From a virus: 22,884 nucleotides of DNA. Numbering within the stretch: position 1 is the stretch's first letter; every line of letters begins with the position of its first letter. Location: IMG/VR virus record IMGVR_UViG_3300035659_000102, positions 1-22,884 of that record; one strand, written 5' to 3'. This document shows, one piece after another, positions 3,119-22,715 of this stretch. The notes below the pieces were generated by a model that was given only the letters and a program-made list of their open reading frames with translations, made no database searches and was not told the origin of the DNA. The translations under genes and the position numbers were made by a program.

Positions 3119-6100
3119 TTATGCCTCCACTACAAAGCCACCGCCGCCTGCACGTCTGGTAGCTGTCTTAAGAGTCGTATTCTGTCTTTCATTTATGGCC
3201 TGCTGTATCTTGACACCATCTAAAAGAATAGAAGTCTGATTTACAATTCTAGTATTAATTGTTACAGGTAGACTTAGGGGTTGAAGGTAAGTTGCACCAC
3301 CACCAGCAACAGCACCGCGAGGGTCGCCTACTGCTTTTGCCACAACCTTCCCCCCGCCCGTGGTGCCGGCTTCTGCAATTCCTAACTCTTTCTTGAACAT
3401 ATCCCAAAGTTCCATTGTCCCATCTTTAATACTACTGAAAATAAATTGTAGGTCCTCTAATATTCCAGTAGTATCAACTATAGGACCTGTAGTTGGAACA
3501 AGTCCTTGCCTTCCAGCTTCCTCTAGGCCTTTTTGAACGTCTCCACCAGTTGTTCCACCGATACCTTGGCCCCATTTTTCAGAAAATGTCTGCGCCAATA
3601 CACCTAAATCTGCAAAAAGTTGCTTTATCCATTCAGAGATTCCCTCATCACCAGGTCCCATAGTTTTCATATCTTCTAGTTTGAGGTTACTCTGACTACC
3701 ACCAACTTCTTTTTTGAACATATCCCACAGTTCCACTGTCCCCTGTATAAAGCTATCAAGCATAGACTTTAGGTCCTCACTAATGTTGCTAGTATCTATC
3801 GCAGGACCCTCTGTTGGGAGAAGTTTCTGTTTCTCAGCTTCTGATAAACCTGCTTGAACGTCCTCTCCGGTAGCTCCAGGAGTTATACCCCAATTTGCAG
3901 AAAATGTTTCGGCTAATGTGCCCAATTGTTCAAAGATACTCTTTATCCAATCAAGAACTCCTTCACCTGGACCACCAGCTCGCATTCCCTCTAATTGTTT
4001 GTCATAGTTCTCTTTCCATCCGGGGGAGCTAACTAACTCCATGAGGCTCTGAATAATTTGATCAAAGATAGGTATAACTAAATCACCACTAGTATCTGGT
4101 TTCATACCTCCACGGCCACCATAATGCTGTACTGGTTCTGGAGCTGCTCCATATCTCTTGGCGTATTCAGCTGCGGCTGCTATTGCTTCATCGTAAAGTT
4201 TCCCTAATTCTTCCTTATCAGTTGGTGCAGTTACAGCTTTAGCTAAATCTTTCGGGATTTCAGGAGGATGGGCGGCATCCCACTGTCTCTGATCTTCCTC
4301 TTCCATTCTAGCAAGTTTAGCTTCCTGAGCAGCAGTGAATTTATTAACAGCACCATCAAATACTCCGGTGCTAGTTGTAAATTCATTTACAGGAGGGCCA
4401 AATTTTTCAAGCATGTTACCGACATCTGCACCCTTATCAATGGGTTGATCAGAGAAGAATAACTTTCCAGTATAGGGGATCATTGCTGTCATCCCCTCTG
4501 GAATATTAAATATACCCTCTAACTGTTTCTCCTGGTTCTTAATCATCATGTCATAAGCCAGTCCGAATACAGTTCTTTGAATTTGTAATTCTTTTAGCAC
4601 CCCGTCATCAGTTACAAAGAGCACTTTTTCTACTGGCTCATTGGCTACTATTTGTGAACCATAGGAAGTAGTCTGTAATTTCTTCTTCCAGAATTCCATA
4701 TTTCCAAATAGTTGAGGTAGCTCACTAGCGGGAATATCAAGCTTTTCTAGGCCTATTTTTGCATTATCTGATAGTATACCAAGTTTCTCAAACTCCTTTG
4801 CAAGTATCTCATCCCAAATTTTATCAAATTCACCTGGAAGTTTTGTTATCGCCCCGGTAAGACTATCAACAATCAAAATTCCTACCTTACCCCAACCCTT
4901 ATAAATTTTTTCTTGTAATGCAGGGTCTGGTGTAACAGACTTAGCGTATTGTTCACTTAGTTTCTTAGCGTTTGCTAATCCTTGCTGTATTAATTTAGGA
5001 TCAGTTCCTCCGGCTACTCTAACATATCCGGGTTCCTCAAATTCTCTATATTTCTTTCCTGCGGCAGTTTCTTTAGACTGTAAGTTTAATAAAGTTTGTA
5101 ATCTAGCTAATTCCTGCATCTGCTCAATGAGTAATTTTCTAGAAGCATAATCTGACTCTCCAGCTTTTCTTAAATCATCAATTGAATTTACTAACTTCTC
5201 TACTCCAGAAGCAGTATTGAGAAGTGCCTGAGTTTCTTCCTCTGAGAGTCCTACTATTAACTCTGCCAGTTCCTTGAAACTAATAGCTGCTTTTTTATTG
5301 TTAGCCGTCATAGCAGCGTAAATTGTAGCGATATTGGCAGGGAATCCAGACTCTATATCTGTTAATGCCTGCAACGACTTAAGTCCGGTCTCTCCTCTAC
5401 CTACCTCTCCCGTAACAGCCGTTCTTTTTTCTGCGAATACTCCTTTGGCCTGTCCTCCAAATTGGGCTACTGTATCACGGATCATATTCCCAAATGCTGT
5501 TGCGGGGATGCTTGTAGATGCCTCCTCTGCGGCCTTCATGCCCAATGCTATTGCTTCATCGTAAAATTTCCCTAATTCTTCCTTTGTCTTTGCAGTCATC
5601 TTTGGAAGAAGCATTGCCATGGCTAGGTCTGCCATTCCTCCACCCTTAAGTCTACCAGAAGCAAGCCCGGCCATTGTTATAGCATAATTTTCTATATCTT
5701 CTTCCTTAGGTCTAAGCCTTCCGGTTCCTCCGGCCGCTGCCATGCCTGCTCCTAACCTACCAACTTCTTCAAACTTAAGTACGCCTCCCAGTCCCTTAAA
5801 TATACTTGAGGTAAGTTCTTCTCGTCTACTAGGCCCCGCAGGTCCTGTCTCTCCCGGAGGAGTCATAGCTTTGGTAAAGATTCTCTCAAATGCTGAAACA
5901 AGATCAACTTCTCTATTGATTAAATTATCGTATAAAGCTGTTGCAATAGCACCACCGATCATGCCTCCAATGGGATTTCCCCCCGCGATAACTTGGGAGA
6001 CTAGACTTGCGGCAATAGTTGATCCGGCCTTTCCAAGATTTGCCTTGTCCCCCATGAGACTTCCCGACATGAAAGACATCATAAGTCCTGTGCCCAATCC

Positions 6101-8539
6101 GCCTCCAGCCTTGCCCCACATAGAAGCTCCAGGACCTTTAAGTGCTCCACCAACTGTGCCCCCAATGGGCTGGTCCATGGCTGGTGATCCAGAGAGCATC
6201 TGGTAAAGCGCATTTCTAATTCTTCCAGTAGGAGGAGTTGGAGTTAATGTAGCTCCCACCCCCACCCCGCCCCCGCCACCGCGCATCCCTGCTGCTGTCC
6301 TTGCCGCCGCTGTTCCACCACCTGGGACCATTGTTCCACCTAAAATATCAAACAGTGTCCTCTGGCCTAAAGCTTGTAATGACGAACTCCTTTTTAGCAT
6401 AATCATGGCGGCAGATAGAGCTATTATCGCTGGAGTGGCAGTACTTAGAGTCTTTATAATTCCATTAAGTATATTAAGAAATCCTGTACCAGCATCTGTC
6501 ATGGCTGTAAATAGGTCTAAGAATCCGCCTTCTGCTCCTAAAGCTCTAGCCATCTCAGAAAAAGCTACGCTTAATCTAGTAGTGGCTGTTTCTAGAGTCT
6601 TCAACTGAATTGCCATTGCGTTAGCAGCGTCTCCCGACGCTGATTTACTAGCCTCGGCTACTTGTTCAACTCTAGGAATATTAGCTAAATATGCTTGAAC
6701 TTGTGCTCCTCGTCTCGCTCCTCTTCCTCCTAAAGTCTCAGAAAGTTTAGCAAAGGCTTGGTCGTCAATTAGTTTTAAGTTTCTACGTTCATAGATTTCT
6801 CTAGAAATTTGATCAAAAGATTTTAATTCACCAGCAGCATCTTGAATAGAAATACCAAATCTAGCAAGAGCCGCACCAGATTCTGGTCTAGTAAATCCCG
6901 ACATAAAAGCTCGAACAGCATTACCAGCCTCTGATGCAGATAAGACTGTAGTTTCTGCAACAACGGCAATAATAGCATTTAATCTGTCAACGCTAAGTCC
7001 TGCGTTTTCTGCCGCAGTAGCTGTAATAGCAAAGGAAGTTGATAATGTTTTAAGATCAACATTTGCGACTTTAGTAACAGCAACCCATTTATCAAGTAAT
7101 GTAACTCCTTGATCTAATGGCATGTTTAGCTGTCTTAAAGAACCAACTAAAGTATCAAGTGCAACAGCCTGTTCCATACCAGAAAGTTTAGATAAAATCA
7201 TAGAATCTGCTAGAAGTTGGGTGGCTAGAGCAGCTCTTTGTGTGGGGTCTACTACTTGACCCGCTGCTCTATATGCTAGAACATATCCATCCATAACACC
7301 TTGAAGGTGGACACCCAATTTGGCTGCTACATCCGCAGCAGCGTCGAAAGCTTTCGCGGTAACAGACGCCGATCCGCCAACAGAAATTTGAATGCTGGCT
7401 AATTTAGTTTGTAACTCCATAGATTCTTTAAAAAGGTCTTGTAACTTTCTCATTGGGACATAAATAGCTGCCGCTGCTATAGACCACTTGGCGAATTCTC
7501 CAATATCTCTGGCTATAGCAGAACCCCACGATCTAAATCCTCTTGCTGTACTATGAAGTACTTGTCCAGCGCTACCTGTTACTACAGAAAGATTTTTAAT
7601 AACACCAGTGGATGTTTCTAGTTGGCCTGACCATCTAGTAGTTTGAGTGGCACCATCCGTCTGAACTTTATTTAAATCTTTTAGCGCCCCACCCTGCTTT
7701 TTTAGTTCCTCTGTCATATTTTTTACTGCTGTTACTCCCCCATACACTCCACCAGGTCCTACTGGACTTCCTGGTGTCGATGAGGCTGGGTACTGTAAAT
7801 TCGAAGGACTAAATATTTTCGAATAATCTGCCTGACCACCGGCAGTTAGATTAGTTTGCCCACCGCCCCGTTGTCCTACTCTAATTGCTCCTAGATGAGA
7901 GAGAGCACTAAGTCCCCGATTTACTTGTTCTATTTCTACCTTACTGTAACCCAAATTCTTTGTTAGAGTGGCTGTATCAGTTGATATAGTTCGTAAAGTA
8001 CCAGAAGCTAGAACTCCACCTTCTGAGAGTTTAACTAAGTTTCGGTATAATTCTACAGTTTCTTGGTTAGACTTAGCAGGCAACATTGACGGCAGGTTAC
8101 GTGTGTAAGCCTGGAAACTTGGATCACGTTTTTGTGCCGCCATCCTATCGCCAAAATTCATAGTCCCCAATGGATCGGCCTGTCTATATCTTTCTGCCAG
8201 TAATGCAAGAGAACGCTGTGCAGCACCTATGCCGCCCTGAATTACTCCAGAGGGACGTTTCGCTTCTGGAAACATTTTTCCTTGGATATTTAGTTCTTTT
8301 AGTGCTGCTACATGTTTACGAGTTGCGGCCTCATCCGCATTTTGTGCTGACATCCATGCTCTTAAAGAGGCTTCGGCCTGAGTGAATGTCTGGGTAACGG
8401 CAAAGCCCTTTCCCAGAGAATTCATCATGTTATAGATTTCTACTCCGGCTCGCGCGCCTCCGACCATAGAAACGGTCATATTCTGCATGGCAATGGTTAT
8501 TTGTTCTATTTCTCGTCTTGCATTGCTTCCTATAGGCAT
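3119..8539 (-). CDS. Tail tape measure protein (TP901-type core)
   Basis: At 1806 residues this is by far the largest gene. Tape measure proteins fix tail length, act as scaffold for tube polymerisation and leave the tail during DNA ejection. Residues about 360-620 resemble the TP901-family core, with repeated helical segments such as GMEQAVALDTLVGSLRQLN, AENAGLSVDRLNAIIAVVAE and SASEAGNAVRAFMSG, then the ETLGGRGARRGAQ turn. Hydrophobic, Gly/Ala-rich stretches at about 351-362, 683-715 and 808-872 are typical of the parts that may insert in the cell membrane. Residues 1481-1720 contain about 2.3 tandem repeats. No peptidoglycan hydrolase motif was recognised. The ATG is one base after the chaperone stop, with GAGG upstream. 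By the usual relation of about 1.5 angstrom per residue, the tail would be near 270 nm; this is an estimate. Confidence 0.93.
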   Translation of the reverse strand: MPIGSNARREIEQITIAMQNMTVSMVGGARAGVEIYNMMNSLGKGFAVTQTFTQAEASLRAWMSAQNADEAATRKHVAALKELNIQGKMFPEAKRPSGVIQGGIGAAQRSLALLAERYRQADPLGTMNFGDRMAAQKRDPSFQAYTRNLPSMLPAKSNQETVELYRNLVKLSEGGVLASGTLRTISTDTATLTKNLGYSKVEIEQVNRGLSALSHLGAIRVGQRGGGQTNLTAGGQADYSKIFSPSNLQYPASSTPGSPVGPGGVYGGVTAVKNMTEELKKQGGALKDLNKVQTDGATQTTRWSGQLETSTGVIKNLSVVTGSAGQVLHSTARGFRSWGSAIARDIGEFAKWSIAAAAIYVPMRKLQDLFKESMELQTKLASIQISVGGSASVTAKAFDAAADVAAKLGVHLQGVMDGYVLAYRAAGQVVDPTQRAALATQLLADSMILSKLSGMEQAVALDTLVGSLRQLNMPLDQGVTLLDKWVAVTKVANVDLKTLSTSFAITATAAENAGLSVDRLNAIIAVVAETTVLSASEAGNAVRAFMSGFTRPESGAALARFGISIQDAAGELKSFDQISREIYERRNLKLIDDQAFAKLSETLGGRGARRGAQVQAYLANIPRVEQVAEASKSASGDAANAMAIQLKTLETATTRLSVAFSEMARALGAEGGFLDLFTAMTDAGTGFLNILNGIIKTLSTATPAIIALSAAMIMLKRSSSLQALGQRTLFDILGGTMVPGGGTAAARTAAGMRGGGGGVGVGATLTPTPPTGRIRNALYQMLSGSPAMDQPIGGTVGGALKGPGASMWGKAGGGLGTGLMMSFMSGSLMGDKANLGKAGSTIAASLVSQVIAGGNPIGGMIGGAIATALYDNLINREVDLVSAFERIFTKAMTPPGETGPAGPSRREELTSSIFKGLGGVLKFEEVGRLGAGMAAAGGTGRLRPKEEDIENYAITMAGLASGRLKGGGMADLAMAMLLPKMTAKTKEELGKFYDEAIALGMKAAEEASTSIPATAFGNMIRDTVAQFGGQAKGVFAEKRTAVTGEVGRGETGLKSLQALTDIESGFPANIATIYAAMTANNKKAAISFKELAELIVGLSEEETQALLNTASGVEKLVNSIDDLRKAGESDYASRKLLIEQMQELARLQTLLNLQSKETAAGKKYREFEEPGYVRVAGGTDPKLIQQGLANAKKLSEQYAKSVTPDPALQEKIYKGWGKVGILIVDSLTGAITKLPGEFDKIWDEILAKEFEKLGILSDNAKIGLEKLDIPASELPQLFGNMEFWKKKLQTTSYGSQIVANEPVEKVLFVTDDGVLKELQIQRTVFGLAYDMMIKNQEKQLEGIFNIPEGMTAMIPYTGKLFFSDQPIDKGADVGNMLEKFGPPVNEFTTSTGVFDGAVNKFTAAQEAKLARMEEEDQRQWDAAHPPEIPKDLAKAVTAPTDKEELGKLYDEAIAAAAEYAKRYGAAPEPVQHYGGRGGMKPDTSGDLVIPIFDQIIQSLMELVSSPGWKENYDKQLEGMRAGGPGEGVLDWIKSIFEQLGTLAETFSANWGITPGATGEDVQAGLSEAEKQKLLPTEGPAIDTSNISEDLKSMLDSFIQGTVELWDMFKKEVGGSQSNLKLEDMKTMGPGDEGISEWIKQLFADLGVLAQTFSEKWGQGIGGTTGGDVQKGLEEAGRQGLVPTTGPIVDTTGILEDLQFIFSSIKDGTMELWDMFKKELGIAEAGTTGGGKVVAKAVGDPRGAVAGGGATYLQPLSLPVTINTRIVNQTSILLDGVKIQQAINERQNTTLKTATRRAGGGGFVVEA
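3368..4099 (-). repeat. Tandem ~105-residue repeats in the tape-measure C-terminus
   Basis: Residues about 1481-1581, 1582-1688 and 1689-1720 align as two full units and one partial unit. Shared elements include DTS...EDL, ELWDMFKKE, GPG.G....WIK, LG.LA.TFS..WG, G.TG.DVQ.GL and PT.GP. The DNA also retains similarity: the segments beginning near 3393 and 3714 (both around ttgaacatatccca) are 321 bases, or 107 codons, apart. Confidence 0.8.
4178..4216. repeat. 39-base near-identical repeat, copy 1 (in the tape-measure gene)
   Basis: This segment matches 5546-5584 at 38 of 39 bases and encodes KEELGKLYDEAIA in the same reading frame. The near-identity includes silent third positions. Confidence 0.75.
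5546..5584. repeat. 39-base near-identical repeat, copy 2 (in the tape-measure gene)
   Basis: Partner of 4178-4216, with a single difference (a for g). It encodes KEELGKFYDEAIA. Protein similarity fades quickly on both sides, so only this short block is shared. Confidence 0.75.
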
Positions 8540-8540
8540 T

Positions 8541-8789
8541 TTATTCCTCTATATCATCTTCTCTTATAACGAAGGGAATTTCATCGTGTCTACGAGTTTC
8601 TTTAACATCATAAGCAGCGTCGATCCAGTCCTCTAATTCTTCTGAACTTCCTTCCCAAATAAGATGGTCTGTAGGTCTTTTTTCTTTCGACATTTCATTT
8701 AAACCATCTACTTGCATTCTTTTTCTAATAAGAAAACTCATTGTCCATGGCAGGTCAAGCGGAGTTTCAAACCCTGCAAATAAGTTCAT
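8541..8789 (-). CDS. Tail assembly chaperone, frameshift extension (GT-type T part)
   Basis: An 82-codon open frame from an ATG at 8789, but it is probably translated mainly as the C-terminal half of a frameshift fusion. The frame is open back to 8843 with no stop. Slipping -1 at the A-AAA-AAA heptamer (8843-8849) would join residue 236 of the upstream chaperone to 100 further residues, giving a protein of about 336. Upstream of the internal ATG there is only a weak AAGG, so independent initiation looks poor. The polypeptide is acidic toward the C-terminus (EGSSEELEDWIDAAYD, then EDDIEE) and starts with WMNLFAGFETPLDLPW. In lambda-type systems the fused GT form binds the tape measure and tube protein. 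Its stop lies one base before the tape-measure ATG, the usual gene order. Confidence 0.8.
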   Translation of the reverse strand: MNLFAGFETPLDLPWTMSFLIRKRMQVDGLNEMSKEKRPTDHLIWEGSSEELEDWIDAAYDVKETRRHDEIPFVIREDDIEE

Positions 8790-8800
8790 CCACTGACCTT

Positions 8801-8849
8801 GAGCAACGTTCCAAGCAGATGCTATGGCGTTGCTCCTCGCGATTTTTTT
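8801..8849 (-). promoter_or_regulatory. Programmed -1 ribosomal frameshift signal
   Basis: Read on the minus strand, the chaperone codons CTA AAA AAA contain the slippery heptamer A AAA AAA in correct phase (8843-8849). After a 7-base spacer, an 8-bp perfect stem pairs GAGCAACG (8828-8835) with CGTTGCTC (8801-8808). The loop can extend it with CCA/TGG and AGC/GCT pairs. The zero-frame stop TAG (8822-8824) lies inside the loop. Heptamer, spacer length and stem together match classical -1 frameshift sites. Confidence 0.85.
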
Positions 8850-9650: not shown

Positions 9651-10859
9651 TTACGGTGCTCGTAAACCACTATATACAATCACCTGTCCTGTATCTGAAC
9701 GCCAGTCAAAGGTCTGTTGAGCGTTATCATTAACGTTCTGAGTAAAACCTTCACTAGTAATAGAGATAGAAGGCAGATAAATTGATTTCTTTATGTCCAG
9801 CGGCTCAACACAATCCGAAGGATCATATAACTTAATCTCGAGTGCAACACCGGCTGTTCCGCACTGTCCGATTGGATACTCTGTGTCAAGGTTGGGTGAA
9901 GAACCAGAAAGCAGAGCGAGCATATCGCTGTCAGTATCGAGCACTGTGATAGAGCCTGTAACCTCAGGAACCTGTGCTAAGTAACCAACGATTTCTCTGG
10001 TACCCATTTCTCTAACAGGTGTGGGATTGAAGTTACCATTAATGGTAACAGACTGGCCTCTAGAAACACCAGAAGCCGCGATAAGAACGCCAACGTCCTT
10101 ACCCTTGATGGCTGCTGGAGTGTTTGCATCCGCCGCCACATCAACCCACGCATCATTAGCAAGGGACGGAGACTGATACACGCAGATAACAAATCCAGTT
10201 CTAGTATCACCCGTTGTCAGGGCTGTACCAACGATTCTGTACTGACCTGCTGTAGGGGCTATTGATACCTCCTCCATGTAACTTCCATTCACAAGACACG
10301 TCATGGCGTATTTACCATTCTTTAGTATCTTGGGGGATTCGGAGAGTGTGAACGAGGTAGTACCAGTTGTGAATTTGTCAACCACTATATCATTCTTAAA
10401 CCATCGCTTCGATGAACCAATGGCAGTGTACTCTTCTGTAGAGTCACCATCAACTGAGTAGTTATATGTAAAGCTTTGAACTGTGCATCTTCGTAGATGT
10501 GCCGCCTTGACATACTGAACAAGGTTCTCGTCTCTGACACGAATAATCGCATCAATGGCCTTACCAATACCAGATACTCCGGTAAGATCAAGACCAAATT
10601 GAGGGAACCCAGACGAGGAAGCACCAGCAAGCGTAGCTATTAGCTTATGGCTAACATCCATAGACTGGAATGTTAATGTAACATTTGCCAAGTCTTTAGA
10701 CGAGCCTGCGTGCTGGCTATTTCCTAACTCATCAATAGTCGTGGTAGCTTGGTCCGCTGTAGCACTCACACGCTGAATTCTAGCGGCCTTATAAACGTCT
10801 CTGGGGCCGATGATTTCTAGTGCGACATACTTATGCGGAATTGCTAATCGTTTCGCCAT
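9651..10859 (-). CDS. Major tail (tube) protein with two tube-like domains
   Basis: A 402-residue protein upstream of the chaperones and tape measure, the position of the major tail protein whose rings form the siphovirus tube. Two parts resemble each other. In residues about 25-152, ELGNSQHAGSSKDLANVTLTF is followed by HKLIATLAG and later by YNYSVDGDSTEEYTAIG. In residues about 260-400, EMGTREIVGYLAQVPEVTGSI is followed by DMLALLSG and later by SEGFTQNVNDNAQQTFDWRS. Between them (about 155-255) is a beta-rich insert containing GQYRIVGTALTTGDTR. A two-domain tube subunit recalls phage T5 pb6, whose trimers mimic a hexameric ring. The ATG has AGGAGG upstream. Strong context; the duplication is my reading from sequence patterns. 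Confidence 0.82.
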   Translation of the reverse strand: MAKRLAIPHKYVALEIIGPRDVYKAARIQRVSATADQATTTIDELGNSQHAGSSKDLANVTLTFQSMDVSHKLIATLAGASSSGFPQFGLDLTGVSGIGKAIDAIIRVRDENLVQYVKAAHLRRCTVQSFTYNYSVDGDSTEEYTAIGSSKRWFKNDIVVDKFTTGTTSFTLSESPKILKNGKYAMTCLVNGSYMEEVSIAPTAGQYRIVGTALTTGDTRTGFVICVYQSPSLANDAWVDVAADANTPAAIKGKDVGVLIAASGVSRGQSVTINGNFNPTPVREMGTREIVGYLAQVPEVTGSITVLDTDSDMLALLSGSSPNLDTEYPIGQCGTAGVALEIKLYDPSDCVEPLDIKKSIYLPSISITSEGFTQNVNDNAQQTFDWRSDTGQVIVYSGLRAP

Positions 10860-12461: not shown

Positions 12462-12908
12462 TTATCTCTCCTGTTCAACCAATGCAACTAAGATTCTGTT
12501 CGGATTAGGAACTCCTCTCAGCTCCGCCGTTTTCTTAATAAGTTTACGGCTATCCACTATAAAGTATTCTGAATTATCAACATGATCCATATTAACTACG
12601 GTGTATTTAATCTGTACTAAGCAGTCTCCATTTACAATCCTGCCTCCGGGTACCCATATAGGCTGGTCCGCTCCTGCCCAAGTTACATGGGCTGTTATAG
12701 TGATACCTGAAACTGTATTTAACCAGTAATTGCCGCTACAGACTGGACAGAATTGGTTTGTTGAAAGATTGGTTATAGGGTCTAAAGAGTCTCCTGAGTA
12801 TGGGCATGGAATACCTGACACTGACCTGTAAAGAAATATATCCCTTCCTATGGCTCCTCTTATATCATCTATAACCGTGACTGTGTTAGTAGGCCATGTT
12901 ATACTCAT
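12462..12908 (-). CDS. Neck protein with four-cysteine, zinc-finger-like pattern
   Basis: A 148-residue protein with cysteines at 35, 54, 57 and 96. The CPYSG and FCPVCSGNYW segments resemble knuckles of a zinc ribbon, so a structural metal site is plausible. The remainder is beta-rich (ITITAHVTW, CLVQIKYTVV, EYFIVDSRKLI), as in head-closure or stopper proteins of siphovirus necks. Its position, after the connector and glycosyltransferase and before the gp10-like gene, fits that role. The ATG overlaps the stop of the glycosyltransferase as ATGA, so the two are translationally coupled. The function is inferred; the cysteine pattern is observed. Confidence 0.6.
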   Translation of the reverse strand: MSITWPTNTVTVIDDIRGAIGRDIFLYRSVSGIPCPYSGDSLDPITNLSTNQFCPVCSGNYWLNTVSGITITAHVTWAGADQPIWVPGGRIVNGDCLVQIKYTVVNMDHVDNSEYFIVDSRKLIKKTAELRGVPNPNRILVALVEQER

Positions 12909-14161
12909 TCGTTTAAGACCTCAGTAAAAACCTTATCGAATTCGTTAGCAACTGAATCCCAACTAAATTCTGGTCTTTGAGTTACTTGATAAGACTTCTC
13001 GGACATTTCTGCTAAATAAAGAGGATCATCGTAGAGTTTCTGTAAAGAATTCGCTACTTGATCTGGAGTTAGCACCGCACCCTCTGTTAGAACCTTTTCC
13101 GTTGTCTGAAAAAACTCTGGCTTCATGAGAACAGCACCGTCTCCAAAAACTTCTGCCCCACCTGCGTAGCCTGTTATAACCTGAGCGGCTCCAGTAGCAG
13201 CGTGTTCGAAGTTAGTAAGTCCCCAACCCTCTCCAAATGACGTATTAAGCCCAACATCACATGCATTATATATTAAGTTTAGTCTATCATCTGGAACGCT
13301 AGGAAGAAAGTTCTCTTTATTCGATATAATCAATCTATCATCTATGTGGTATCTATCCGCTAGGCTGACTATGTTCCATCCCATATCTTCAATTCCCATA
13401 TGAAGATATAATTTGACATTCGGGGGCTTATCCTTACAAAACAAGGAGAAACCTTTCATGGTAACATCAATTCTTTTTCTAGGCTGATTTCTATTAGCGT
13501 TCAAAACTACAAACGAATCTAAGAAATCATTCTTATTAGGATAAACCTGTCTCTTAGCGTTTACCCTACCAGATAGGATTGCATTACCATGCCTATCATT
13601 CAAGTCCTCGAGTTTATAGAAAAGTTTAGTGTCAATTCCATGAGGTATTACATTAATCTTTGGAAACTTTACTGGTTCCGAAGAATGTAATCTCCACTGT
13701 TCTACACTATCTTCAAGAACTTTCTTAGCAAACTCTGTGTATACAATGTATCTATCAACGTCTCTAAGAGAGTGCGTCCATCGCCAGTCGATTGGTCCGG
13801 CATCAATAGGAGAATAACAGACTATCTTATATCTGTCATGCCATTCTTGTATTCTCTCCATATACATTGGTAACACCCAAACATCATTAAGCATAAATAC
13901 AAGTTTGGGCTGAATAAAGTCCAACAGGTCCATAATCCTGTTGATACCATAAATATCCCCCATCATACCACCGGCCAATGCTGCGGGATAAATTCTCCAA
14001 CTATAGGGATGTGGGTCACCCCGGTAGTTTATGGCTAAATGGTGAATTTCCCATTTTTCATTTTGGTCTAATCTAGATAAGATGCTATTAAGAACTCTAG
14101 CAAATCCAGTTGGTGCTACCCCATCCCCTACCACGAATATTTTTATCTTTTCTTTTCCCAT
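12905..14161 (-). CDS. GT4-like glycosyltransferase (GT-B fold) inside the neck gene cluster
   Basis: A 418-residue enzyme of the retaining GT-B type, expected to transfer a sugar from a nucleotide-sugar to an unknown acceptor. The N-terminal half carries the Gly-containing loop VVGDGVAPTGFARV (about 10-23). The linker has NVIPHGID (170-177). The C-terminal half carries NRNQPRKRID (223-232), with basic residues of the kind that contact donor phosphates, and the EX7E motif GEGWGLTNFEH with Glu311 and Glu319, followed by ATGAAQVITGYAGG. No signal peptide or membrane segment was seen, so it is probably cytosolic. The start has GAGG five bases upstream and is preceded by the structured 146-base leader. 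It is not a structural family, so it looks like cargo between connector genes, yet it is coupled by ATGA to the next neck gene. Confidence 0.88.
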   Translation of the reverse strand: MGKEKIKIFVVGDGVAPTGFARVLNSILSRLDQNEKWEIHHLAINYRGDPHPYSWRIYPAALAGGMMGDIYGINRIMDLLDFIQPKLVFMLNDVWVLPMYMERIQEWHDRYKIVCYSPIDAGPIDWRWTHSLRDVDRYIVYTEFAKKVLEDSVEQWRLHSSEPVKFPKINVIPHGIDTKLFYKLEDLNDRHGNAILSGRVNAKRQVYPNKNDFLDSFVVLNANRNQPRKRIDVTMKGFSLFCKDKPPNVKLYLHMGIEDMGWNIVSLADRYHIDDRLIISNKENFLPSVPDDRLNLIYNACDVGLNTSFGEGWGLTNFEHAATGAAQVITGYAGGAEVFGDGAVLMKPEFFQTTEKVLTEGAVLTPDQVANSLQKLYDDPLYLAEMSEKSYQVTQRPEFSWDSVANEFDKVFTEVLNE

Positions 14162-19754: not shown

Positions 19755-21316
19755 GGTAACATCCTATCTGCAAACCACGTTGGAGTATAAAGTCTCTTAC
19801 TTTTATGTCTATTCTGACTTGCATCTTTTACGAGATAGTGGGCCACTGATGCACATAGCAATGCTGATGTGTGGTGGTCCTCACCCTTTTCTCCTCCTCG
19901 TAAAGTTAGAGTTCTATAAACTACTTCTCCTGACGGGGTTTTAGTATATGTGGTCCTTTCTAATTCTGATATAAATTCCATATCAGTAGATGAATAAATT
20001 ATCTTATGAGAGTTAGAATATTCTTGTGCCAAAGATACGGCAAATGGTTTTAGTTTAGTCTTAATTTCATTACCATCCGCATCTATACCCAGAACAATCT
20101 GGGAGGCAAATTCAATGGGGAACATTCTTTTCTTGTAGTCTTTGTGGATAAAATCATCGGCTTCCAGTAAGTCTTGAACGAATGGCTTACCGGGTCCGCC
20201 TGCATCAATACCGATTATATCAAATCTTCCAAACTTATCGTCCAGAAAATCTATTAGTCTTTTCTGTAGGGGATAAGAAACTTTAGTTAATTGAATTCTA
20301 GCATGATAAAATAGTTGACCATCTTTTGCATACAAGATATGTATAGCCGTTGGCTCTGTGTACCCCAAGTCAATTCCAACTAGTGTATAGTCTACCTTAG
20401 TTTCAATCTTAGGAAGAACAGACAGCTTATTATAAATTTCAGATGTATCCACAACAACTGTTCCGTCCACCTTAATTTTATATACAGGATATTGCTTTAT
20501 GAGCATTAAGTTTCTGTCAAATACAGCGAATGTTGGAGAACCGTGCCTCCCCATAACATGGTGAATGTAATCTTCACTATCAACTCCTCCATACTGTTCA
20601 ATATTTTCTTGTTCTTTCTCTGGTGTATATCTAGGATTTTGATGGGCAGTTACTCTATGAATAGAGAACTTACTGTCTATCTCGTCTGCATAATAACAGA
20701 CATTATTTTCTCTTAACCCAATTGGAACACCGGATACGATTAGTCTAAAACCCTTTTGCCATTGATTTAGAGTCGGCTGGAGTTCAATCCATGTGCCCCA
20801 AGGAAAGAAACCAGACTCATCTAGAATTTCAAACGGACTGTGCATACCAACTACGTTAGTACCTGTTCCAGTCGTTCCGGCTATTCTGCAATCTAACATG
20901 GTAAAGTTTAGTAATTTTATAGTATGAGTAGATGAGTTGATACCCTTCTTAGGATCGATGAATTGCTTTAGGAGAGAGTTGACTCTAAATAATCTAGATA
21001 GGTGATTAAACACAGGATCAAGATGCACCTTATTAGGAACTACATATACTATGTAGTCTCCCCTGAATACCTGATTTATCATTAGCCAACAGATAATAAC
21101 GCCTAGGGATATGGTTTTTCCAACAGACCTACCACAACAGAGACTTACAAAGTTACCAAAATCACAGATGAACTCTTTCTGATATACAGTTAACTCAAAC
21201 GACTCATCCTCAGGCTCTAGGTCAACGTTATAGAAAAACTCTCCCATTAGAACCGGATGTCTCATAATTTCATAGAGGATCATATCCTCATGACTAGGCT
21301 TCTCAACAATAGGCAT
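19751..21316 (-). CDS. terL: Terminase large subunit
   Basis: This packaging motor cuts concatemeric DNA and pumps it through the portal. I start it at the ATG 21314-21316, which forms TAATG with the preceding stop and gives 521 residues; the frame extends six codons to a TTG at 21334 that has no ribosome site. The ATPase domain shows an adenine-binding-like YQKEF (45-49), Walker A GRSVGKT (62-68), Walker B FEILDE (162-167, with Glu167 catalytic) and a coupling-like VSGVP (about 194-198). The RNase H-like nuclease domain shows GIDLGYTEPTA with Asp316, IIGIDAGGPGKP with Asp371, and EDHHTSALLC with Asp480, a plausible metal-binding triad. No small terminase is visible in the window. Confidence 0.95.
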   Translation of the reverse strand: MPIVEKPSHEDMILYEIMRHPVLMGEFFYNVDLEPEDESFELTVYQKEFICDFGNFVSLCCGRSVGKTISLGVIICWLMINQVFRGDYIVYVVPNKVHLDPVFNHLSRLFRVNSLLKQFIDPKKGINSSTHTIKLLNFTMLDCRIAGTTGTGTNVVGMHSPFEILDESGFFPWGTWIELQPTLNQWQKGFRLIVSGVPIGLRENNVCYYADEIDSKFSIHRVTAHQNPRYTPEKEQENIEQYGGVDSEDYIHHVMGRHGSPTFAVFDRNLMLIKQYPVYKIKVDGTVVVDTSEIYNKLSVLPKIETKVDYTLVGIDLGYTEPTAIHILYAKDGQLFYHARIQLTKVSYPLQKRLIDFLDDKFGRFDIIGIDAGGPGKPFVQDLLEADDFIHKDYKKRMFPIEFASQIVLGIDADGNEIKTKLKPFAVSLAQEYSNSHKIIYSSTDMEFISELERTTYTKTPSGEVVYRTLTLRGGEKGEDHHTSALLCASVAHYLVKDASQNRHKSKRLYTPTWFADRMLP

Positions 21317-22242
21317 TATCCTTGGGGTCTCCAATAATCTGCAATAGCTCTCTCATTATCTCGTCTAGAAATCTTTATGCTAGGCTCTAAAGGAATATTT
21401 CCTCCTAATGAATAGGGTTCTCCGTTGAAAGGAATATCATACATTTCCTGTCCAAAATCTCCTCCCCACTTAGTCATATAGAACTTACGATTATTATTAA
21501 AATATTGATGATTAGATGTTTTTTCTACTGAGTTTTTTATTTCGAACTGCTTTATAGTTCTACTCCAAAAGTGGAAATAGACAGAGTTAGTTAAGTTACA
21601 AGTCTTAAGTTTAGCGTTGACGCCTCTTCTTGCGTAATCATTATCTTCATAATATGCAGGATAAAAATTAGGGTCTACATAACCAATAGCGTCAAATACA
21701 GATTTCTTATAAAGACAGAGATTATGAACGTCTTTAATAACATTAGGTTCTATAACTCTCTCATCACAATACCCAGTAAAACTCTCCCACGGTTTAGTTT
21801 TAAAATCTTCAAAAAGAAGTTTATCGGGTCCACCATGAAAATATTTTTCAGTTTCTGGGAACTGATTTATTAATGTTTTAACATCATACTGAGAAGCACT
21901 GATCCATTCCCAGTCTGTTTCCTTTGCCAGTTTAATCATATTATCTATGGCATACGGATAGCAAATAATATCGTTACCTGCTGTAATCACATAATCATAA
22001 TCATTATGAACAAATCCATAGTCATAAATATCATTTAATCCAGCAGGAAAACCCATATTGACTTCGTGGACTACACTAGGAACTGCTGATGCGTCTAGCC
22101 ACTGTTTTGTTATAGTGTCACTAGGTCTACCCACTACCACAAACAAGTCAAAAGGAGACTTCACTGTTCTATCAAAGGATTCTATCGTTAATCTAGTGAA
22201 GTCAAATGCTCCGTATGTCACAATCCCCACTAAAGTTTTCAT
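21316..22242 (-). CDS. GT2-like glycosyltransferase (GT-A fold)
   Basis: A 308-residue inverting-type GT-A glycosyltransferase. The N-terminus MKTLVGIVTYGAFDFTRLTI is the nucleotide-binding first strand and helix. NMGFPAGLND (62-71) matches the N-x-G-x-x-x-G-x-N loop. AGNDI (88-92) occupies the place of the metal-binding D-x-D. YYEDNDYARR (197-206) resembles the catalytic ED motif with a following Arg. No membrane helix was seen, so the acceptor is likely soluble, such as a virion protein, or a lipid-linked sugar reached peripherally. It lies between a GDP-sugar-type Nudix hydrolase and the terminase, and both junctions are TAATG overlaps, so the three are probably translated together. The sugar and acceptor cannot be read from the sequence. 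Confidence 0.85.
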   Translation of the reverse strand: MKTLVGIVTYGAFDFTRLTIESFDRTVKSPFDLFVVVGRPSDTITKQWLDASAVPSVVHEVNMGFPAGLNDIYDYGFVHNDYDYVITAGNDIICYPYAIDNMIKLAKETDWEWISASQYDVKTLINQFPETEKYFHGGPDKLLFEDFKTKPWESFTGYCDERVIEPNVIKDVHNLCLYKKSVFDAIGYVDPNFYPAYYEDNDYARRGVNAKLKTCNLTNSVYFHFWSRTIKQFEIKNSVEKTSNHQYFNNNRKFYMTKWGGDFGQEMYDIPFNGEPYSLGGNIPLEPSIKISRRDNERAIADYWRPQG

Positions 22243-22715
22243 TACGCCTCTCCCTTTTTTCTAAAGTACTGTTTTGTATATTCATGGACATTCTCTGATT
22301 TAAGTATATCTTCTTCTGAAAACCATTGAAAACGTCTATGTTGACCCTCTGGCAAATGGTCGCTATCGGTTCCTACATGCGCGTGGAGCCCTATAACAAT
22401 ATAGTGTGTCCCAGAAGAACTCCCATAAATATTTTCTTTATATATATGCTCAAAGATACCAGCAAAACCACAGGATTTTATGCCGATTCTAACTCCCAGT
22501 TCCTCTTCGCTAACTCTTTCTACGGCCTCGTCTATGTGCTCTCCCCTTAGTATCCTTCCGCCCGGAACAAACCAGTAGTCTTTTGCTGGAGGATTATTCC
22601 TAAGTCCTAGCAGGACCTTGCCGCTTTGGTTTCTGACGATAAGATCAATAGAAATTAAAGGAGTATTTTCAACAACAGTTCTAAATGTTTCTCCATCTAA
22701 TCTTTCTATAAGCAT
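22242..22715 (-). CDS. gmm: GDP-mannose mannosyl hydrolase-like Nudix enzyme
   Basis: A 157-residue Nudix protein closely resembling Escherichia coli Gmm (NudD), which hydrolyses GDP-mannose or GDP-glucose to GDP plus the free sugar. Family-specific features are visible: the start TPLISIDLIV then LLGLRNNPPAKDYWFVPGGR; a modified Nudix box from Gly52 to Gly74 that ends ER-x3-EEELG rather than the standard REx2EExGU; THYIVIGL; and EGQHRRFQW, whose His126 corresponds to the histidine described as general base in the E. coli enzyme. The C-terminal SENVHEYTKQYF also matches. Length is near the family norm. The ATG at 22715 has a weak GGTG site and overlaps the end of the preceding gene by ten bases. 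Coupled by TAATG to a glycosyltransferase, it may tune GDP-sugar pools or alter host polysaccharide. Confidence 0.9.
   Translation of the reverse strand: MLIERLDGETFRTVVENTPLISIDLIVRNQSGKVLLGLRNNPPAKDYWFVPGGRILRGEHIDEAVERVSEEELGVRIGIKSCGFAGIFEHIYKENIYGSSSGTHYIVIGLHAHVGTDSDHLPEGQHRRFQWFSEEDILKSENVHEYTKQYFRKKGEA

Follow-up and report, generated by a model that had tools for sequence, protein, structure and literature searches.

A predicted programmed -1 frameshift cassette with a covarying stem between the tail genes of an uncultivated tailed-virus lineage

Results

Gene content of the tail region

The window analysed here is the whole of IMG/VR record IMGVR_UViG_3300035659_000102, a stretch of 22,884 bases from an uncultivated tailed virus. 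On its minus strand, a G-like reading frame and a T-like segment in the -1 frame lie between the genes of a probable major tail protein and the tape measure protein, and their junction carries a heptamer, a spacer and a stem (Table 1). The product of the probable major tail protein gene showed a weak match to a virion structural protein family (PHROG 985, E 7e-4), and genes for a portal (PHROG 2739, E 1.3e-12) and the large terminase subunit (PHROG 2, E 4.6e-13) were found further upstream. The genes are arranged as in the morphogenesis module of a long-tailed phage. Two glycosyltransferase genes (12905–14161 and 21316–22242, both on the minus strand; Pfam PF00534, E 2.4e-8, and PHROG galactosyl transferase, E 2.9e-11) are located within the head-tail module. 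The first occupies the same place in two relatives (L002 and L072), and the second adjoins a NUDIX hydrolase gene (22242–22715, minus strand; PF00293, E 1.2e-14) just upstream of the large terminase gene.

Table 1. Features of the predicted frameshift cassette and its flanking genes in the window
Feature	Position	Strand	Evidence
Tape measure protein gene, 1806 aa, directly downstream	3119..8539	-	PHROG 4211, E 7.9e-22; Pfam PF10145, E 2.3e-16
T-like segment in -1 frame, 100 codons plus stop, predicted to be entered by frameshift	8541..8843	-	translation; 35-row alignment
Stimulatory stem (putative), 3' arm CGTTGCTC	8801..8808	-	sequence, folding; register 48 class
Zero-frame stop TAG, within stem loop	8822..8824	-	sequence
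G-like upstream reading frame, zero frame, 242 aa	8822..9550	-	ORF list, translation, 35-row alignment, AlphaFold2 model
Stimulatory stem (putative), 5' arm GAGCAACG	8828..8835	-	sequence, folding, covariation
Spacer TCGCGAG, 7 nt	8836..8842	-	sequence
Slippery heptamer A_AAA_AAA, in phase with zero frame	8843..8849	-	sequence; 92/92 distinct relatives with in-phase heptamer
Probable major tail protein gene, 402 aa, directly upstream	9651..10859	-	position, conservation in relatives (identity inferred)

No credible Pfam family match was obtained for the G and GT-frame proteins, and the second-frame proteins had no family match; two PHROG families of tail assembly chaperones (19026 and 21634) gave weak matches, each to 4 of 35 members (best E 0.0017). 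The G-like protein was modelled by AlphaFold2 with a mean pLDDT of 89.4, and a fold search with this model against PDB and BFVD returned no significant match. The designation of the two products as tail chaperones in the initial annotation is in line with their architecture and with their location between the probable major tail protein and tape measure genes, but finds no backing in a family match. Synteny, architecture and the biology of phage lambda together suggest a chaperone role for the G-like and G-T proteins.

Anatomy of the junction

The zero frame ends in ...CTA AAA AAA TCG CGA GGA GCA ACG CCA TAG, so written by codons, and the 8-bp stem GAGCAACG/CGTTGCTC encloses a loop of 19 nt. 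The 5' arm doubles as coding sequence for the conserved residues R-S-N-A of the -1 frame. No stop codon interrupts the -1 frame between the heptamer and the stop at 8543–8541, and the predicted fusion protein comprises 236 zero-frame codons (9550–8843) followed by 100 codons of the -1 frame, that is, 336 residues. The initial annotation had described an in-phase A AAA AAA heptamer, a 7-base spacer, a perfect 8-bp stem with the zero-frame stop inside its loop, and a -1 frame open into the frame at 8541–8789 that would give a protein of about 336 residues; the sequence agreed with this description base for base, with the TAG at 8824–8822 and the -1 frame open to 8541.

Heptamer and reading phase in relatives

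Relatives were drawn from IMG/VR, which supplied many, and from GTDB genomes, which supplied two contigs from metagenome-assembled genomes (MAGs). A profile-based script located both frames in 230 loci representing 92 distinct junctions, 81 of which had been recovered by protein similarity and not via the heptamer pattern. Neither protein matched any record of the INPHARED phage collection, and among annotated phages no relatives of either protein were found, the terminase alone having a distant one.

The second frame was -1 relative to the first in all 92 distinct junctions, and all 92 contained an in-phase heptamer (85 A_AAA_AAA, 6 A_AAA_AAC and 1 A_AAA_AAT). Loss of the heptamer with both frames kept as separate genes, which had been set beforehand as a refutation, was seen in none of the 92. 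The relatives with A_AAA_AAC or A_AAA_AAT (L012, L013, L014, L015, L050, L051 and L140) have the stop directly after the heptamer. Across all relatives the zero-frame stop was situated 0, 18, 21, 36, 48, 54 or 57 nt past the heptamer; since it follows immediately in 36 of the 92 junctions and 18 nt on in another 44, there is little conserved protein in the zero frame beyond this point. In a 35-row alignment the last six zero-frame codons of the window, which lie past the heptamer, were not conserved, and the -1 frame was conserved from the first residue past the heptamer (IARSNA...). The first lysine codon of the heptamer was AAA in 45 of 45 sequences and both codons were AAA in 40 of 45, the remainder having AAC and none AAG; in the rest of the G genes only 64% of lysine codons were AAA.

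Of the two MAG-derived relatives, L072 (contig JAUWDF010000002.1) had been assigned to a Bathyarchaeota bin and L073 to a spirochaete bin. An archaeal host, considered on account of the former, is disfavoured, as neither PCNA nor MCM was found among 28 large relatives and a DnaB-type helicase was present in 24 of them. These gene contents suggest that a bacterial host is likelier, and the disagreeing MAG labels may be binning effects.

Likelihood of a chance stem

RNA folding of positions 8842–8780 recovered the stem plus additional inner pairs (-20.1 kcal/mol), with a z-score of only -1.65 relative to dinucleotide shuffles; thermodynamic stability on its own is unconvincing support for the stem. 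Perfect stems of 8 bp or more that start 5–9 nt downstream and have a loop of 3–30 nt are available at 0.38% of window positions, and A7 runs occur twice on the minus strand of the window and not on its plus strand. When the window's own -1 frame was recoded synonymously, an equally good stem arose at p = 0.002. The same recoding test carried out relative by relative missed p <= 0.05 in 25 of 45 cases. The decisive support for the predicted frameshift cassette comes from comparative evidence.

Stem covariation and the moving 3' arm

For comparison among relatives, the register of a stem was defined as the sum of both arm offsets measured from the heptamer end. The 5' arm lies about 9 nt past the heptamer in relatives, within the S-N-A codons. 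In the largest group, the 3' partner is located within the A-L codons, and two of seven pairs switch between C-G and U-A in step through mostly synonymous changes (15 CG/8 UA and 14 CG/8 UA in 23 sequences); shifting the partner by 1 to 3 columns destroyed the pairing. In this group, the register 59 set, 95% of cells were paired, five of seven pairs were changed on both sides and none of 500 shuffles matched the score. In the register 48 set, which holds the window, 96.4% of cells were paired and four of seven pairs were changed on both sides. The comparison of related phages for stem conservation, which the initial annotation had called for, thereby revealed two-sided, mostly synonymous covariation.

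Because the register 59 and 48 sets had been picked by stem register, the test was redone on clades of the protein tree. Pairing peaked at register 59 in clade A (0.90), at register 71 in clade B (0.92) and at register 48 both in the window clade (0.84) and in four deep A6C/A6T sequences (1.0), against a median pairing over all registers of 0.32–0.39 in the protein-tree clades. For the two variable positions of clade A, correlation with the partner reached 0.83 and 0.93, against 0.39 or less for non-partner columns, in a test free of stem selection that covers one clade of related sequences. The relatives with A_AAA_AAC or A_AAA_AAT mostly form deep branches, the exception being L140, which lies inside the register 59 clade.

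The distance of the 3' arm varied by clade (registers 48, 53, 59 and 71), and the stem registers required 11 changes on the protein tree compared with a mean of 38.9 for shuffled registers. Register 48 is probably the older state, because it is common to the window clade and the deep lineages, a polarity inferred on a tree whose root is not fixed; registers 53, 59 and 71 characterise other clades. One relative (L039) has an altered 5' arm with an 8-bp partner at register 90, and another (L152) has an 8-bp partner at register 75; these single cases may be due to chance. We consider it likely that the slip site and the 5' arm have stayed fixed and that the 3' arm has repeatedly been re-created elsewhere in the coding sequence (registers 48, 53, 59 and 71, perhaps also 75 and 90), leaving loops that range between about 10 nt and over 50 nt, selection keeping the existence of the stem and its distance to the slip site and not the loop.

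The usual stem was absent in some relatives (L003, L072, L007, L060 and L109). Two of them, L003 (5708–5790) and L072 (5001–5080), are close kin of the window that have kept the heptamer and miss the usual 3' arm; in L003, a helix of the CTCC/GGAG type about 22 nt downstream offers an alternative. Because of these relatives and of those that missed the threshold of the recoding test, the stem may be helpful rather than strictly required, or another structure may substitute for it. Shine-Dalgarno (SD)-like tetramers upstream of the heptamer, which could act as stimulators, were sparse and scattered, and none was conserved. No known RNA family in Rfam matched, and no description of a covarying stem at phage G/GT sites was found in the open literature searched, which does not prove absence.

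Discussion

A programmed -1 ribosomal frameshift is the favoured explanation

Heptamer, phase and fused frame are universal in the relatives, and the stem covaries. On the strength of these sequence comparisons, the cassette very probably encodes a programmed -1 ribosomal frameshift of the lambda G/GT type, as the initial annotation had proposed; slipping at the heptamer itself is a prediction, as is any rate for it. Most ribosomes would read 9550–8822 and terminate at the TAG, releasing the 242-residue G-like protein. With lysyl-tRNAs on AAA AAA, the downstream stem would slow translocation, and a fraction of the ribosomes would shift back by one base, the tandem lysyl-tRNAs re-pairing on AAA AAA in the -1 frame. 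These ribosomes would then read ATC GCG AGG... and end at 8541, yielding the 336-residue G-T fusion. In lambda, the tape measure protein is bound by both gpG and gpGT and the major tail protein by the T part, the two products being made at a ratio of about 30:1 (PMC5009743). By analogy, excess G would coat the product of the adjacent tape measure gene, the less abundant G-T would recruit the major tail protein, and the slip rate would set the ratio of G to G-T. The suggestion that an all-A heptamer with a stem-loop may be efficient is unsupported, as A_AAA_AAA is less shift-prone than A_AAA_AAG in Escherichia coli (PMC5009743). A low slip rate would suit a chaperone ratio.

The second frame could instead be a separate gene with its own start, reached by translational coupling, with the heptamer being incidental. 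The window does offer an ATG at 8789, from which an 82-residue ORF can be listed, and 48 of the 92 relatives have some ATG within the first 50 second-frame codons. The position of this ATG is, however, unconserved (codons 6–48), 44 of the 92 have none in the first 50 codons, and any start with an SD-like tetramer was found in only 11 of 92; moreover, the methionine of the window is replaced by isoleucine or valine in L002 and L016, and conservation starts at the heptamer, upstream of any start. We regard an independently initiated gene as very unlikely.

Equally improbable in our view is transcriptional slippage, in which RNA polymerase would slip on the A run, the two frames being joined in transcripts whose length has changed. 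The run is homopolymeric, and slippage of this kind is known as an alternative from insertion sequences and Thermus dnaX (PMC5009743), yet the run is only seven A long, and in seven relatives it comprises six A and a terminal C or T, a change expected to weaken slippage by the polymerase. Nor would a covarying stem 9 nt past the run be expected from polymerase slippage alone; the nascent-RNA stems reported as stimulating such slippage are situated upstream of the slip site. An assembly error or pseudogene, in which an indel in the homopolymer, the usual site of such errors, would have split one gene, is refuted for practical purposes by the identical phase and in-phase heptamer across all 92 distinct junctions, which come from independent metagenomes, and by the conservation of both segments.

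Implications

Frameshifting in phage tail genes is already familiar; the programmed -1 frameshift proposed here is that of a large lineage of tailed viruses with no relatives in culture. The -1 cassette is clear and supported by covariation, and the putative tail chaperone genes of this uncultivated lineage find no match among curated families; the general understanding of tail assembly is left unchanged. Gene callers could annotate both the G-like and the G-T products. A series of stems sharing one arm within a lineage is unusual, and such a natural series, in which one arm is fixed and its partner moves, provides a test set for the effects of spacer, stem strength and loop length on the ribosome.

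Comparison with known systems

The cassette resembles lambda G/GT and its counterparts in other long-tailed phages in having two frames between the major tail protein and tape measure genes, the second at -1. As in lambda, a slippery heptamer lies near the end of the first frame, and the predicted fusion joins a shared N-terminal part to a T-like part. It differs from lambda in its heptamer, which is A_AAA_AAA (A_AAA_AAC/T in distant relatives) and not G_GGA_AAG, and in having a covarying 3' stem whose distal arm is movable; moreover, neither protein is detectably similar to those of cultured phages. E. coli dnaX likewise combines an all-A-type heptamer with a 3' stem-loop stimulator, but uses A_AAA_AAG and an upstream SD stimulator, of which no conserved equivalent was found here, and its shift gives a shorter product, whereas the shift predicted here would give a longer one. 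In IS3-family orfA/orfB a -1 shift also joins overlapping frames, with a downstream structure in many elements (PMC5009743); the present locus is a phage tail module that contains no transposase. Haloarchaeal tailed viruses (HVTV-1 and HCTV-1/2/5) share the -1 shift in their tail chaperone genes g-t, the heptamer of HCTV-2 being A_AAA_AAC (PMC5009743), a motif also present in some of the relatives described here, whereas our lineage is without archaeal replication markers.
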